From Microbacterium sp. H83 (GTDB lineage Bacteria > Actinomycetota > Actinomycetes > Actinomycetales > Microbacteriaceae), in the NCBI RefSeq assembly GCF_001650405.1, contig NZ_LWCU01000001.1, forward strand, positions 90,311-154,310: 64,000 nt of DNA. Direction: 5' to 3'. The notes below the pieces were generated by a model. It was not told the origin of the DNA. It searched no databases and saw only the letters and a list, made by a program, of their open reading frames with translations. Shown here piece after piece: positions 42,477 through 47,040 of this stretch (within the stretch, counting starts at the first letter, position 1; the number at the start of each line of letters is the position of its first letter). Both the position numbers and the translations under genes were made by a program.

Positions 42477-42841
42477 GAGGTCTCTCCTTCTTTGTTTAGA
42501 CTCGCGAATCCGTGTGACGCGCGAGCGTGTTCATGAAGGAGCGGACGGGCAGGATATGGGCGCGCGGGCACTCCCGCGAATGTCGCCTGCGCTGGCCACC
42601 AGTAGAAAGCCACCCGACATGCCCTGCCGAGGAACCCACCACAGGGGACCAGCTTCTCCGCCGATCGCTCCATGAGTCGATGTGAAGTTGTGCAGCCGAC
42701 AGAGATCGGCCTCCTACACCCTACCAGCGGACCCGCGGAAACCCGCGGCGATCACGACGATCGCCGATCCGACACCCGTCGTCCACGAGGCGTTCACCCC
42801 TCGGACTCCGCGTCGTGCGGAACCTCGGGTGTCCTGGGGCC
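42477..42841. other. 365-bp intergenic region: pnp leader and ugd upstream region
   Basis: No coding potential on either strand. On the minus strand a TAGGGT hexamer lies near 42718-42723. A GCCGA/TCGGC stem with a 6-nt loop follows at 42695-42710, so the pnp mRNA probably has a long leader of over 200 nt. PNPase genes often autoregulate through their leader, but no specific structure can be proved here. On the plus strand TGTCCT ends 6 nt before the ugd ATG. Confidence 0.45.
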
Positions 42842-44152
42842 ATGCGCATGTCAGTGATCGGCTGCGGGTACCTCGGTGCCGTGCACGCCGCCGCGATGGC
42901 CTCGATCGGACACGACGTCATCGGCATCGACGTCGACGACCGGAAGGTCGACGCCCTCCGCCGCGGATCCGCTCCGTTCTTCGAGCCCCAGCTCGAGGAT
43001 CTCCTGCAGGAGGGAGTCGCCTCGGGGCGTCTGCGCTTCAGCTCCGACATGGCGGACGCCGCGGGCGCTGCCGTGCACTTCCTGGCGGTCGGCACGCCGC
43101 AGATCGCGGGTGGGCACGCCGCCGACCTGCAGTTCGTCGATGCCGCTGTCTCGGCTCTCCTGCCCCATCTGCGAGACGGCGACGTGGTCGCCGGCAAGTC
43201 CACGGTGCCCGTCGGCACGGCGGAGCGGCTGAGCGCCGCGGTGGAGGCATCCGGCGCCACGCTGGTGTGGAACCCGGAGTTCCTCCGCGAGGGGTGGGCC
43301 GTGCACGACACGATCTCTCCGGACCGACTGGTGGTCGGCGTGCCGTCCGGCGACGCGGGCGAGCGGGCCGCCGAGCTGCTGCGGGACGCCTATCGCCCCG
43401 CGGTCGACGCGGGCACCCCGTTCCTCGTCACGGACCTCGCCACCGCCGAGCTCGTCAAGGGAGCTGCGAACGCCTTCCTCGCCACGAAGATCTCGTTCAT
43501 CAACGCGATGGCGGAGATCGCCGAGGCGGCCGGCGCCGACGTCACGCTCCTCGCGGACGCGATCGGCCATGACACTCGCATCGGACGCCGGTATCTCGGC
43601 TCCGGGATCGGCTTCGGGGGCGGGTGCCTCCCGAAGGACATCCGGGCCTTCGCCGCGCGTGCGGAGGAGCTGGGCCGCGGGGAGGCCGTCGGATTCCTGC
43701 GCGAGGTCGACTCGATCAACCTGCGCCGCCGCGACCGGGCGGTCCAGATGGTCGTCGACGCGCTCGGCGGCCTCGTGTTCGGGCGCCGGATCGCCGTGCT
43801 CGGAGCGGCGTTCAAGCCGTTCAGCGACGACATCCGCGATTCGCCCGCGCTGGACGTCGCCGTCCGCCTGCGCGGACTCGGCGCCGATGTCGTCGTCACC
43901 GACCCCGCAGCGCTCGACAACGCGCGGGCCGCGCACCCGCAGCTGGGCTTCGCGGAGGACCGTGACGACGCGCTGCGGGATGCCGATGCCGTCGTCATCG
44001 TCACCGAGTGGGATCTGTACCGACGCGAGCTCTCGCCGGAGCACGCGGGCTCGCTCGTGGCCGGGAGGGTCGTCATCGACGGCCGGAACTGCCTCGACGC
44101 CGCCGCCTGGCGGGCCGCCGGATGGTCGTATCGGGGCATGGGGCGTCCGTGA
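42842..44152 (+). CDS. ugd: UDP-glucose 6-dehydrogenase
   Basis: Oxidises UDP-glucose to UDP-glucuronate with two NAD+, feeding cell-surface glycans. 436 residues. The Rossmann loop is SVIGCGYLGAVHAAAMASIGHDVIGIDVD. KSTVPVGTAERL, WNPEFLREGWAVHD and GIGFGGGCLPKDI near residue 260 (catalytic Cys) identify the family, and VLGAAFKPFSDDIRDSPALDVA opens the C-terminal domain. TGTCCT 6 nt upstream resembles the leaderless elements but lacks the A. Convergent with the glycosyltransferase-hydrolase gene. Confidence 0.95.
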   Translation: MRMSVIGCGYLGAVHAAAMASIGHDVIGIDVDDRKVDALRRGSAPFFEPQLEDLLQEGVASGRLRFSSDMADAAGAAVHFLAVGTPQIAGGHAADLQFVDAAVSALLPHLRDGDVVAGKSTVPVGTAERLSAAVEASGATLVWNPEFLREGWAVHDTISPDRLVVGVPSGDAGERAAELLRDAYRPAVDAGTPFLVTDLATAELVKGAANAFLATKISFINAMAEIAEAAGADVTLLADAIGHDTRIGRRYLGSGIGFGGGCLPKDIRAFAARAEELGRGEAVGFLREVDSINLRRRDRAVQMVVDALGGLVFGRRIAVLGAAFKPFSDDIRDSPALDVAVRLRGLGADVVVTDPAALDNARAAHPQLGFAEDRDDALRDADAVVIVTEWDLYRRELSPEHAGSLVAGRVVIDGRNCLDAAAWRAAGWSYRGMGRP

Positions 44153-44171
44153 CGGACGCAGGGCGCCGCGG

Positions 44172-46112
44172 TCAGGCGACCGAGACGTCTCGACGCGACG
44201 AGGATCGCCCCAGGTAGACGTAGTCGTCGTGCTTCGCGACGCGCCCGTCTCCTGCAGCGCGACCGTGCAGCCGCCGCCACACCCACGGCAGCGCGTGCCG
44301 CCGCCACCAGAGACCGGCGCCGAGCGGCTCGTTCTCGTGCAGGGCGGCATCGAGTGCACCGAGCGCGTCGGCGTGGGGCACCCCGAGCACCTCCCCCGCG
44401 CGATAGGCGAGCACACGGTGACCGCGGCTGCTGAGGTGCACGAGATCCTCGCCCCAGTTCGGCCGGTCGGGCAGCGTCGGGTGCATGTCGGTGTCGATCA
44501 GGATCGCGCCGGTGCGTGCTGCGACGCCGGTGAGGGCCGTGGCGAATGCCGCGAACCGCCGCGTGTAGATGCCGGCCGCCCGCCGCCTCGGCAGGAACGG
44601 GGTGACGAGGAGGACATCGGCACCGGCCTCTCGCAGCCGCGAGACGGCGCCCTCGAGCTGGGCGGCGAGAGCCCGCACGTCCACCGATCGACCGACGAGG
44701 TCGTTGGCGCCGACGAGGATCGACACCAGGTCGGGACGAAGCTCGAGCGCCCGTGCGAGCTGCGGGCCGCATACGTCTCGCACCCGCTTCGAGCGGATGG
44801 CGAGGTTCGCGTAGTGCAGCCCGCCTCGGGCGGCGAGGAGAAGCGCCAGACGGTCCGCCCACCCGCGCAGAGCGCCGTCCGGCGCCGGATCGCACAGCCC
44901 CTCGGTCAGGGAGTCGCCCAGCGCGACGTAGCGCTGCCAACGGCGATGCGGCACGGGTGCGGTGCGCTCCGGACGCGTCGCGCGTCGAGCCCGACGCGCG
45001 GCGTCCACCTCACGCAGTGTGCGGGCCTCGTCGAAGTGCGCGAGCAGCTGGTCGCAGACGCTGGCCCAGCTCCGGTCCTGCACGGCCTCGTGCCCGGCCC
45101 GGCCGAAGGCTCTGCGCTTGCGCCCGTCGCCCGCGAGGTCGGCGACACGCATGCGGAGGTCGTCCCGGTCGCCCGGCCGGTAGAGCCATCCGTCGATGCC
45201 CATGCGCACGAGGTCCAGCGGGCCGCCGCGGCCCGTCGCCACGACCGGGACCCCGCTCGCGTGCGCCTCCTGCAGCGTCTGTCCGAACGTCTCGCTCTCG
45301 CCCGGGTGGACGAACACGTCGAACGAGGCCAGGGCCGCGGCGAGCGCGTCGCCGTCGAGGTGGCCGAGGAAGAGCGCGTCCGGCAGCGCGGCCTCGAGCT
45401 TCGCGCGGCTCGGCCCGTCGCCGACGATCACGAGGCGGGTGCCGGGGATGCCGCGGAGCGCCGCGAGGTCCTCCACCTGCTTCTCCGGTGCGAGTCGACC
45501 GACGTAGCCGATCACGACGTCAGACCCCCAGTGCGTGCGGAGCGTCTCGCTCCGCTGGGAGGGATGGAACCGTTCGGCGTCGACGCCTCTGCCCCAGCGG
45601 CGCACCCTGTCGACGCCGAGCGAGGCGAGCTGCCTCGCGGAGTCCTCCGACGGAGCGAGGGTGAGAGTGGCCCGACGGTGCAGACGCGCGATGTGGGACT
45701 GGGCGATGCCGGTGGTCGCGGGGATCCGGTATCGCTCGGTGTAGGCGGCCACGTCCGTCTGGTACGCCGCGACCGAGGCGACGTCGAGACGCTCCGCGGC
45801 GAGCGCGCCTCTCCATCCCAGGGCGAACGGGGAGGCGAGGTGCACGACGTCGGGATCGAACCTCCGCAGGGATGCGGCGACACGATGCGCGGGAGAGGTC
45901 CCGACGCGCACGTTGCGGTAGCCGGGGAGAGCGAGGCTCGGGATCGTCTCGACGGCGGCGCCGTGCACGTGTGCCGGTATGCCGGCGGCATCCGGGGCGA
46001 TGACATGCGCGTCATGACCCGTTCGCTCGAGGTGCCGGAGGATCTGCAGCACCGATCCGGTCACACCGTTCATGTGCGGAAGGAAGGACTCTGTCACGAT
46101 CGCGACTCTCAC
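44172..46112 (-). CDS. GT4 glycosyltransferase fused to an SGNH/GDSL hydrolase
   Basis: 646 residues with two complete domains. Residues 1-375 form a GT-B glycosyltransferase of family 4: AIVTESFLPHMNGVTGSV, the phosphate-binding YVGRLAPEKQVEDLAAL near 205, and the E-x7-E motif in GESETFGQTLQEAHASGVPVV (E274 and E282). It resembles the MgtA/PimB-type mannosyltransferases. An Arg-rich linker of about 20 residues follows. Residues 393-600 form an SGNH hydrolase: ALGDSLTEG (Ser401), LVGANDLVGR, and DLVHLSSRGHRVLA with the catalytic Asp and His. The last 40 residues are basic and Trp-rich. No signal peptide or membrane segment, so both act in the cytoplasm. GTG start. Confidence 0.9.
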   Translation of the reverse strand: MRVAIVTESFLPHMNGVTGSVLQILRHLERTGHDAHVIAPDAAGIPAHVHGAAVETIPSLALPGYRNVRVGTSPAHRVAASLRRFDPDVVHLASPFALGWRGALAAERLDVASVAAYQTDVAAYTERYRIPATTGIAQSHIARLHRRATLTLAPSEDSARQLASLGVDRVRRWGRGVDAERFHPSQRSETLRTHWGSDVVIGYVGRLAPEKQVEDLAALRGIPGTRLVIVGDGPSRAKLEAALPDALFLGHLDGDALAAALASFDVFVHPGESETFGQTLQEAHASGVPVVATGRGGPLDLVRMGIDGWLYRPGDRDDLRMRVADLAGDGRKRRAFGRAGHEAVQDRSWASVCDQLLAHFDEARTLREVDAARRARRATRPERTAPVPHRRWQRYVALGDSLTEGLCDPAPDGALRGWADRLALLLAARGGLHYANLAIRSKRVRDVCGPQLARALELRPDLVSILVGANDLVGRSVDVRALAAQLEGAVSRLREAGADVLLVTPFLPRRRAAGIYTRRFAAFATALTGVAARTGAILIDTDMHPTLPDRPNWGEDLVHLSSRGHRVLAYRAGEVLGVPHADALGALDAALHENEPLGAGLWWRRHALPWVWRRLHGRAAGDGRVAKHDDYVYLGRSSSRRDVSVA

Positions 46113-46251
46113 ACCCTCAGGATGCAGCGGGCGCGGGGCCGCGGAGGCGCGAATCGGTCGTGGGCACCAGAAGTTCACCGGATGCTGGAGCGCTGGTCAC
46201 CGGCTATCCGCGCGTTGGTTCCCGTTCACCTCCGCCGCGCAGGGTGGACCC

Positions 46252-46824
46252 GTGCCGACCGACCTGCTCACCGGCCCCTGGTCCCTCGCGATCATGGCGC
46301 TGCTGGTGCTCGGAGACTCCTTCTTCGTGATCATCCCGGGCGAGATCGCCGTCACGGCGCTCGGCGCGATCGCGTCGTCGTCGGGCTCGCCTCCTCTGTG
46401 GTCCGTGATCCTCTGCGCCGGGGCGGCGGCGGCGTGCGGAGACGCCGCCTGCTACCTGATCGGACGCACGGTCGGGACGGAGCGCTGGCGGTGGATGCGC
46501 GCACGCCGGGTGCGTCAGGCCCTCGACTGGGCGCGACGACGACTGGACGGGGGCACGGCGACGGTGCTGTTCACCGCCCGCTTCGTCCCGTTCGCCAGGC
46601 TGGCCATCAATCTCGTCGCCGGAGCCTCCCGCATCCATCCGCTGCGGTACCTGTGCCTGGTCGTGGTGGCGGCTCTGGGCTGGGCCGCGTATCAGGCGTC
46701 GGTCGGGACCATCGTCGCCGCGCTCGTCCCCGGCGGCCCGGTGGTCGCCGTCGTGGTGTCGGTGGTCGTGGCGCTCGGACTCGGTGCGGCGATCGACCTC
46801 GCCACCCGGAAGGCGCGCAGGTGA
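46252..46824 (+). CDS. DedA-family membrane protein
   Basis: 190 residues, about four or five membrane segments. The DedA/SNARE-associated core shows the reentrant region GDSFFVIIPGEIAVTALGAI near residue 20 and the conserved GDAACYLIGRTVG and FTARFVPFARLAINLVAGASRIHPLRYL. DedA proteins flip or recycle lipid carriers such as undecaprenyl phosphate in tested bacteria. The GTG at 46252 gives a normal N terminus; the open frame upstream encodes no membrane protein features. Lies next to glycolipid-type genes, which suits a lipid-carrier role. Confidence 0.83.
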   Translation: MPTDLLTGPWSLAIMALLVLGDSFFVIIPGEIAVTALGAIASSSGSPPLWSVILCAGAAAACGDAACYLIGRTVGTERWRWMRARRVRQALDWARRRLDGGTATVLFTARFVPFARLAINLVAGASRIHPLRYLCLVVVAALGWAAYQASVGTIVAALVPGGPVVAVVVSVVVALGLGAAIDLATRKARR

Positions 46825-46850
46825 GCCTGCCGCCGCCGAGGGGCGTGCTC

Positions 46851-46856
46851 TAGGCT
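46851..46856 (+). promoter_or_regulatory. Leaderless -10 element of the DUF5302 gene
   Basis: TAGGCT, 7 nt before the ATG at 46864. Confidence 0.5.
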
Positions 46857-46863
46857 GGCGGGC

Positions 46864-47040
46864 ATGAGCACCGAAGAAGGCGCCTCCTCCAGCGAGGAGA
46901 TGAAGCGCAAGTTCAAGGAAGCGCTCGAGAAGAAGAACGCGCACCAGCGCCAGGGCGAGGCCCACCTCGACGGCGATTCCGCCGTCCACGGCGCCCATGC
47001 CCCGCAGACGCGGCGCGAGTTCCGACGCAAGAGCGGTTGA
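46864..47040 (+). CDS. DUF5302 protein
   Basis: 58 residues, highly charged and probably disordered with one helix: EEMKRKFKEALEKKNAHQRQ, then GEAHLDGDSAVHGAHAPQ and ending REFRRKSG. The AHLDGDSxVHGAH and FRRKSG blocks are the hallmark of the small actinobacterial DUF5302 family. Function unknown. The last residues resemble the basic C termini of ribosome- or nucleic-acid-binding peptides, but this is only an impression. Starts 39 bp after the DedA gene and has its own -10 element. Confidence 0.85.
   Translation: MSTEEGASSSEEMKRKFKEALEKKNAHQRQGEAHLDGDSAVHGAHAPQTRREFRRKSG

Follow-up and report, generated by a model that had tools for sequence, protein, structure and literature searches.

What would a single protein do with both a sugar-transferring and an acyl-handling domain? 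The question is raised by a gene on the minus strand at 44172..46112 of the window, which is the whole 64,000-nucleotide stretch of Microbacterium sp. H83 DNA analysed here. The gene joins a GT4 glycosyltransferase (GT) to an SGNH/GDSL hydrolase, and the first-pass annotation suggested that the protein couples glycosylation to acylation or deacylation of one glycolipid.

A conserved fusion of GT4 and SGNH domains

The gene is defined by its open frame, its Pfam domains and its conservation. It starts with GTG and encodes 646 amino acids and a stop. Translation of the frame confirmed that both domains lie in one chain, with three Pfam domains over their cut-offs: Glyco_transf_4 at residues 15-181 (82.7 bits), Glycos_transf_1 at 198-341 (84.4 bits) and Lipase_GDSL_2 at 397-567 (94.8 bits). 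The first two of these, together with an E-x7-E motif, place the MgtA-like N-terminal half (residues 1-365; 45018..46112, minus strand, as are all parts of the gene) in GT4. The best NCBIfam match of the fused protein, GlcN-PG synthase (NF053787), scores 144.7 bits and lies below its curated cut-off of 480. A linker (residues 366-393; 44934..45017), in which 4% of columns reach 95% identity and which has lengths of 15-61 in 98 fused sequences, leads to the SGNH catalytic domain (residues 394-575; 44388..44933). The C-terminal tail (residues 576-646; 44175..44387) has W602, P609, W610, R613, R614 and GDG as invariant columns in 46 sequences, and this Trp/Arg-rich segment is possibly membrane-binding.

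The catalytic residues were found where the annotation had placed them, and they are very strongly conserved in 98 distinct fused sequences (including the query; another set, of 102 fused rows, holds repeats of the same genomes). In the GT half, E274 (45291..45293) is glutamate in 97 of the 98 and aspartate in one, while E282 (45267..45269) is invariant. In the SGNH half, the Block I nucleophile Ser401 (44910..44912), Gly468, Asn470, Asp471, and both Asp556 and His559 of the Block V D-x-x-H motif (44436..44447) are kept in 98/98.

An AlphaFold model of the whole protein, using 46 fused sequences, had a mean pLDDT of 85.2 and a pTM of 0.86. The GT half of the model (to residue 369) matches PimB' of C. 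glutamicum with GDP-mannose (3oka; Z 36.1, rmsd 2.3 over 345 residues, 24% identity), MshA (3c4q; Z 36.4, rmsd 3.2 over 360) and PimA (2gej; Z 34.5, rmsd 3.6 over 340); the top match is sucrose-phosphate synthase (6kih; Z 37.2, rmsd 3.1 over 364). The GT fold begins at residue 1 of the model, which suggests that the protein is probably cytosolic rather than extracytoplasmic. The fold matches listed for the whole model were all to glycosyltransferases, and therefore the SGNH half was also folded separately (pLDDT 79.2, pTM 0.81). Its matches are GDSL lipases and acetylxylan esterases (best Z 19.3), and include TesA (4jgg; Z 18.5, rmsd 2.4 over 174), so that the domain has an SGNH fold at Z about 19.

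The whole fusion is spanned on the other strand by an antisense open frame of 1094 amino acids (43569-46853, plus strand). It matched no Pfam family at E 0.01, and is a shadow of high-GC DNA.

A frameshift or assembly error that joined two separate genes would give the same chain, and a few genomes do carry frameshifted or GT-only forms. This explanation is refuted by the conservation of the fusion, and its probability is negligible. The GT was found in 95 of 119 Microbacterium genomes (tallied by hand from the match table), and 92 of these 95 carry the GT and the SGNH domain in a single frame; they are 91 single full-length matches and one genome (G263) with two pieces in one frame. The other 24 genomes gave distant matches only (best E 1e-37 to 1e-31). 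At the level of genome contigs, 80/80 Microbacterium loci are fused, in a set that is biased towards fused forms since the 80 top-ranking of 330 matches were kept, with the full-length protein as query. The fusion is broken by an apparent frameshift close to the 3' end in G392 (L274), and G419 (L272) and G457 (L273) have the Microbacterium GT without the SGNH half. In a GT tree the last two nest at different spots within the fused clade, and look like two separate secondary losses.

A search across Microbacteriaceae, as proposed in the first-pass annotation, found the domain pair in one open frame in 13 of 150 family genomes (12 full-length matches, and G142 with two pieces in one frame). In the 150 family and 246 class genomes together, the fusion occurs under at least eight genus codes of the family; outside the family, there was no full-length one-frame fusion among the matches listed for the 246 class genomes. 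The fused GT halves, represented in one GT tree by 18 rows, cluster as a single clade (SH-aLRT 99), and a tree with the GT-only and frameshifted genes places these within it (100/99). The two outcomes that the annotation had named as fatal, an assembly error or domains always kept apart in relatives, are thus not what was found, although two Microbacterium genomes have the GT only. It is concluded that the GT4-SGNH fusion is real and conserved.

The glycosyltransferase half and its partners

Among the matches listed, single-domain GTs of family code f10 are 46-53% identical to the GT half. The GT of L120 (49% identical) has menD upstream (339 bits, cut-off 244.2), and that of L177 (53% identical) adjoins a demethylmenaquinone methyltransferase gene (414.6 bits, cut-off 327). 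A menaquinone-gene neighbourhood is also the setting of M. tuberculosis Rv0557 (MgtA), and the likeness of the GT half to MgtA, a putative orthology, is judged from the GTs at these two loci and from this synteny. The GT half is likely to carry out a lipid-directed, and probably mannosyl, transfer.

Two neighbours of the gene had been remarked on in the first-pass annotation. The ugd gene (42815..44152, plus strand), of UDP-glucose 6-dehydrogenase type by Pfam and NCBIfam (TIGR03026; 385.8 bits, cut-off 189.8), does face the fused gene, with 19 bases between the two. As an argument for a pathway supplied with UDP-glucuronate it is weak, and suggestive at most: of the 80 Microbacterium loci, 27 have ugd at a distance of 5 kb or less, in convergent orientation, and most of these belong to a single group of related species. 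In L111 and L112, both of family code f2, ugd is again a neighbour of the GT. The DedA neighbour is a steadier companion. This VTT/DedA-family membrane protein (46072..46824, plus strand; PF09335, 70.4 bits) has an open frame that is divergent from the fused gene, and its true start probably lies further inside that frame. A VTT/DedA gene is near in 68/80 loci and divergent in all 68. DedA proteins have a role in lipid transport; NCBIfam matches to UptA lie far below cut-off. PNPase is near in 72/80 loci. A further open frame of 58 amino acids close to the VTT/DedA gene (46864-47040, plus strand) has tblastn matches in 70/80 loci, and is predicted to be, probably, a real small protein.

Partners of the GT in other lineages were surveyed in 99 GT neighbourhoods, hand-picked from the listed matches to cover the family codes, so that the fractions are not population frequencies. 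Outside the family, a same-strand SGNH gene lies downstream of the GT in 19 of 56 loci, of which 17 have the order GT1-GT2-SGNH and two are GT-SGNH (L128, L175); they come from family codes f8, f18, f21, f22, f26, f32 and f35. The remaining 37 of the 56, including all loci of 14 other codes, were scored without an SGNH gene; some loci so scored stop at contig edges (L127). Of the 43 loci picked within the family, L140 alone has the GT and SGNH as adjacent genes, whose start and stop codons overlap in GTGA. At all 37 junctions in the 19 loci and L140, the open frames of consecutive genes overlap or are no more than 16 bases apart. Compact GT1-GT2-SGNH operons are seen for example at L126:5037-8433, L171:3938-7145 and L176:2068-5204, and at 14 more loci. 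The three f26 loci come from genomes of 1.3-1.5 Mb, which implies that reduced genomes retain the operon. These operons probably represent a conserved glycolipid pathway. At L209:1222-5511 (G046), an SGNH gene lies behind ugd, and the two face a VTT/DedA gene and an MgtA-like GT; this locus holds the same parts as the region studied here, in unfused form.

An SGNH tree was made with 19 of the 102 fused rows, and with L022 (the same genome locus as L140) and the fragment L257|1|525 dropped. In this tree the 19 operon genes are a clade by themselves (100/100). The fused SGNHs group with L209 (80/99), a sequence with a long branch and an unsure placement. This group lies in a larger one with two lineages of standalone SGNHs, A and B, and L140 nests in B. 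The partners thus come from three SGNH lineages, and it follows that the pairing of GT and SGNH arose more than once. Such repeated joining points to shared substrate use. The neighbours of the sister standalone SGNHs (L211-L223) were considered as a further clue and rejected, since the next gene in L211 is an oligoribonuclease, which gives no glycolipid link. In lineage A generally (L211:4056-5537 and relatives), which consists of SGNH genes from other Microbacteriaceae and lies close to the fused SGNHs in the tree, the commonest next gene occurs in 8 of 14 clustered loci, and is oligoribonuclease in the one tested.

It could be argued that the GT half is an ordinary MgtA whose product, Man-GlcA-diacylglycerol, serves as a membrane glycolipid or as the anchor of a lipoglycan, and that the SGNH half is mainly a tether or has an unrelated substrate. 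This would fit the identity to GTs at MgtA loci, the ugd genes close by here, in L111 and L112 and in L209, the GT-only losses in two genomes, and a conserved Trp/Arg tail that could bind the membrane. It would leave unexplained why the SGNH catalytic residues are invariant in 98 sequences and why the GT is repeatedly paired with SGNH genes elsewhere, and the low frequency of ugd counts against it. In addition, a search of the genome of this strain gave no match to MptB (NF038066), though the same search finds MptB in C. glutamicum (one of 14 controls); a main role in lipomannan anchor synthesis was rejected on this ground. We consider the ordinary MgtA unlikely.

The Block II serine and a possible acyl transfer

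Of the features expected of an SGNH/GDSL enzyme, the fused proteins have the Block I Ser, the Block III Asn and the Block V Asp-x-x-His, each in 98/98 sequences. The Block II Gly is replaced: Ser441 (44790..44792) stands at this position in all 98. In a profile alignment it lines up with the Gly of the N-x-G-x-S-G motif in solved SGNH esterases. The glycine is retained by 12/13 standalone relatives in lineage A and by 33/34 in lineage B (with one partial row left out), the exceptions with serine being L218 and L228. The SGNH of L140, which adjoins a GT in another genus, has serine as well; its sister L228 is on a different contig from the GT of its genome. The operon SGNHs of other Actinomycetes have glycine in 19/19.

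The Block II Gly is part of the standard oxyanion hole (PMC9487903). In the peptidoglycan O-acetyltransferase PatB, its change to Ser/Asn, together with a hydrophobic wall, is described as hindering water and helping to shape the preference for transfer (PMC12148441). Other acyltransferases have an altered Block II, or the usual Gly as in S. aureus OatA (PMC9487903), so that the serine is neither required for transfer nor proof of it. By analogy, Ser441 points to acyl transfer over deacylation, and the view of the SGNH half as an acyl-transferring domain depends chiefly on it; transfer of an acyl group to a sugar by this domain is plausible, with a probability not far below even.

Lipids that would need such a transfer are known. 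Reports of acyl-mannosyl glycerolipids from Microbacterium, Arthrobacter, Rothia and relatives date back to the 1990s (cited in PMC10786734, PMC4365757). The testacosides of M. testaceum are glucosyl-(1-3)-mannosyl-glycerol lipids, and testacoside A has a single acyl chain, on mannose O-6, with none on glycerol (PMC10786734). GGL.2 of Microbacterium sp. DSM 12583 carries acyl groups at mannose C-6 and on the glycerol (cited in PMC10786734), and dimannosylacyl monoglycerides, in which one chain sits at C6 of a mannose, occur in Rothia, Arthrobacter, Sinomonas, Nocardiopsis and Saccharopolyspora (PMC4365757). The text of PMC10786734 has no occurrence of gene cluster, mannosyltransferase or hydrolase, and a literature search with little cover of subscription journals gave no gene for mannose acylation and no report of a GT4-SGNH fusion.

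The SGNH half could instead be a plain esterase, which deacylates the new glycolipid to a lyso form or clears misplaced acyl groups, any acylation of mannose then being the work of another enzyme. Its best matches in fold and sequence are indeed esterases, lipases and thioesterases, the operon SGNHs carry the hydrolase-type glycine, and the single acyl chain of testacoside A (PMC10786734) would suit a deacylated product. That chain is on the mannose, however, and simple deacylation of the glycerol does not explain it; nor would an esterase account for serine in 98/98 fused sequences. The plain esterase seems to us rather unlikely.

A short acyl group on the sugar, such as acetyl or succinyl, might be moved or removed in place of a fatty acyl chain. 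Acetylxylan and other carbohydrate esterases are among the nearest solved structures, and characterised enzymes with a Block II Ser, such as PatB, are acetyltransferases (PMC12148441). The chain has no AT3/MBOAT acetyl-donating domain among its Pfam matches, however, the membrane protein encoded next to it is of the VTT/DedA family, and the lipids known from Microbacterium bear fatty acyl groups (PMC10786734). A short acyl substrate is accordingly quite improbable.

Proposed function and comparison with known systems

An acyl-mannosyl core would need a mannosyltransferase and an SGNH domain that moves acyl chains, and the fused protein is thus a candidate for making it. We tentatively propose a bifunctional mannosyltransferase and acyltransferase that makes 6-O-acyl-mannosyl glycerolipids such as the testacosides and GGL.2, a reading to which we give a little less than an even chance. 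The donor, acceptor and product are those that we infer. The MgtA-type GT4 half would add alpha-mannose from GDP-mannose to a membrane acceptor, either diacylglycerol or, as for MgtA, glucuronosyl-diacylglycerol. The SGNH half would then load Ser401 with a fatty acyl chain, drawn either from the glycerol of that lipid or from a different membrane lipid, and hand it to the mannose 6-OH, with Ser441 making its loss to water slower. This would yield a (6-O-acyl-mannosyl)-monoacylglycerol core, to which another enzyme adds glucose. That this is the core of GGL.2 and the testacosides is a guess, supported by the chemistry and the genus.

The bifunctional reading is based on the retention of the fusion, the intact motifs of both halves, the Block II Ser in 98/98 sequences, the likeness of the GT half to MgtA, and the recurrent pairing of this GT with different SGNH lineages. 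It is also favoured by the published 6-O-acyl-mannose lipids of Microbacterium (PMC10786734), and by a genome that has no MptB match and has one ManC-type domain (48.5 bits). Several observations weigh against it. The operon SGNHs keep the glycine, and therefore the change to serine is not tied to pairing generally; serine is also present in the standalone L218 and L228; the SGNH half is absent from two GT-bearing Microbacterium genomes; the nearest SGNH folds are mostly esterases; and the known MgtA acceptor is glucuronosyl-diacylglycerol, not diacylglycerol (PMC3229680). The genome also has no clear ortholog of the operon GT2 among its GT loci, where the best score was 91.6 bits (L261), with 117 for the fused protein itself and 574 for a GT2 in the profile seed. 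Of the original suggestion, coupling of sugar transfer to acyl chemistry on one glycolipid gains from the MgtA-like GT, the intact SGNH domain and the recurrent pairing; deacylation loses ground, since the Block II Ser favours transfer.

In its widest form, the proposal is that one polypeptide adds a sugar to a membrane lipid and then transfers a fatty chain from the glycerol of that lipid to the new sugar, and that in other Actinomycetes, SGNH genes recruited independently carry out this step next to the same GT, together making 6-O-acyl-mannosyl monoacylglycerol glycolipids. This is a speculative extension, which we regard as more doubtful than the function suggested for the fused protein.

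The conserved fusion brings together two known kinds of protein, a GT4 lipid glycosyltransferase and an SGNH acyl enzyme. The fused gene and the GT-GT2-SGNH operons provide a single-gene, testable hypothesis for the open acyl-mannose step in actinobacterial glycolipids. If it is true, an SGNH fold has been turned into a lipid transacylase that is physically tied to the sugar-transfer step, and the fusion would be a genome marker for the acyl-mannosyl glycerolipid class.

Four known systems can be compared with the fused protein. MgtA (Rv0557 / NCgl0452, alpha-mannosyl-glucopyranosyluronic acid transferase) shares the GT4 fold and motif, with 49-53% identity between the GT half and the menaquinone-locus GTs, whereas the four f10 MgtA-locus GTs examined have no adjoining SGNH gene. 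The SGNH/GDSL hydrolases of the Lipase_GDSL_2 type, such as TesA and the acetylxylan esterases, are alike in fold, in the Ser-Asp-His residues and in the Block III Asn, but have the Block II Gly and lack the attached glycosyltransferase. The peptidoglycan O-acetyltransferases PatB and OatA (MBOAT-SGNH and AT3-SGNH) are similar in that PatB likewise has Ser for the Block II Gly (PMC12148441), a change that the fused protein shares; they differ in having an AT3 or MBOAT domain, in place of which the fused chain has a GT fold from residue 1 and is probably cytosolic. Finally, the Actinomycete GT1-GT2-SGNH operons begin with a gene of the same GT family and have an SGNH gene downstream on the same strand, but their SGNH belongs to another clade with the Block II Gly, and in 17 of 19 a second GT lies between the two.
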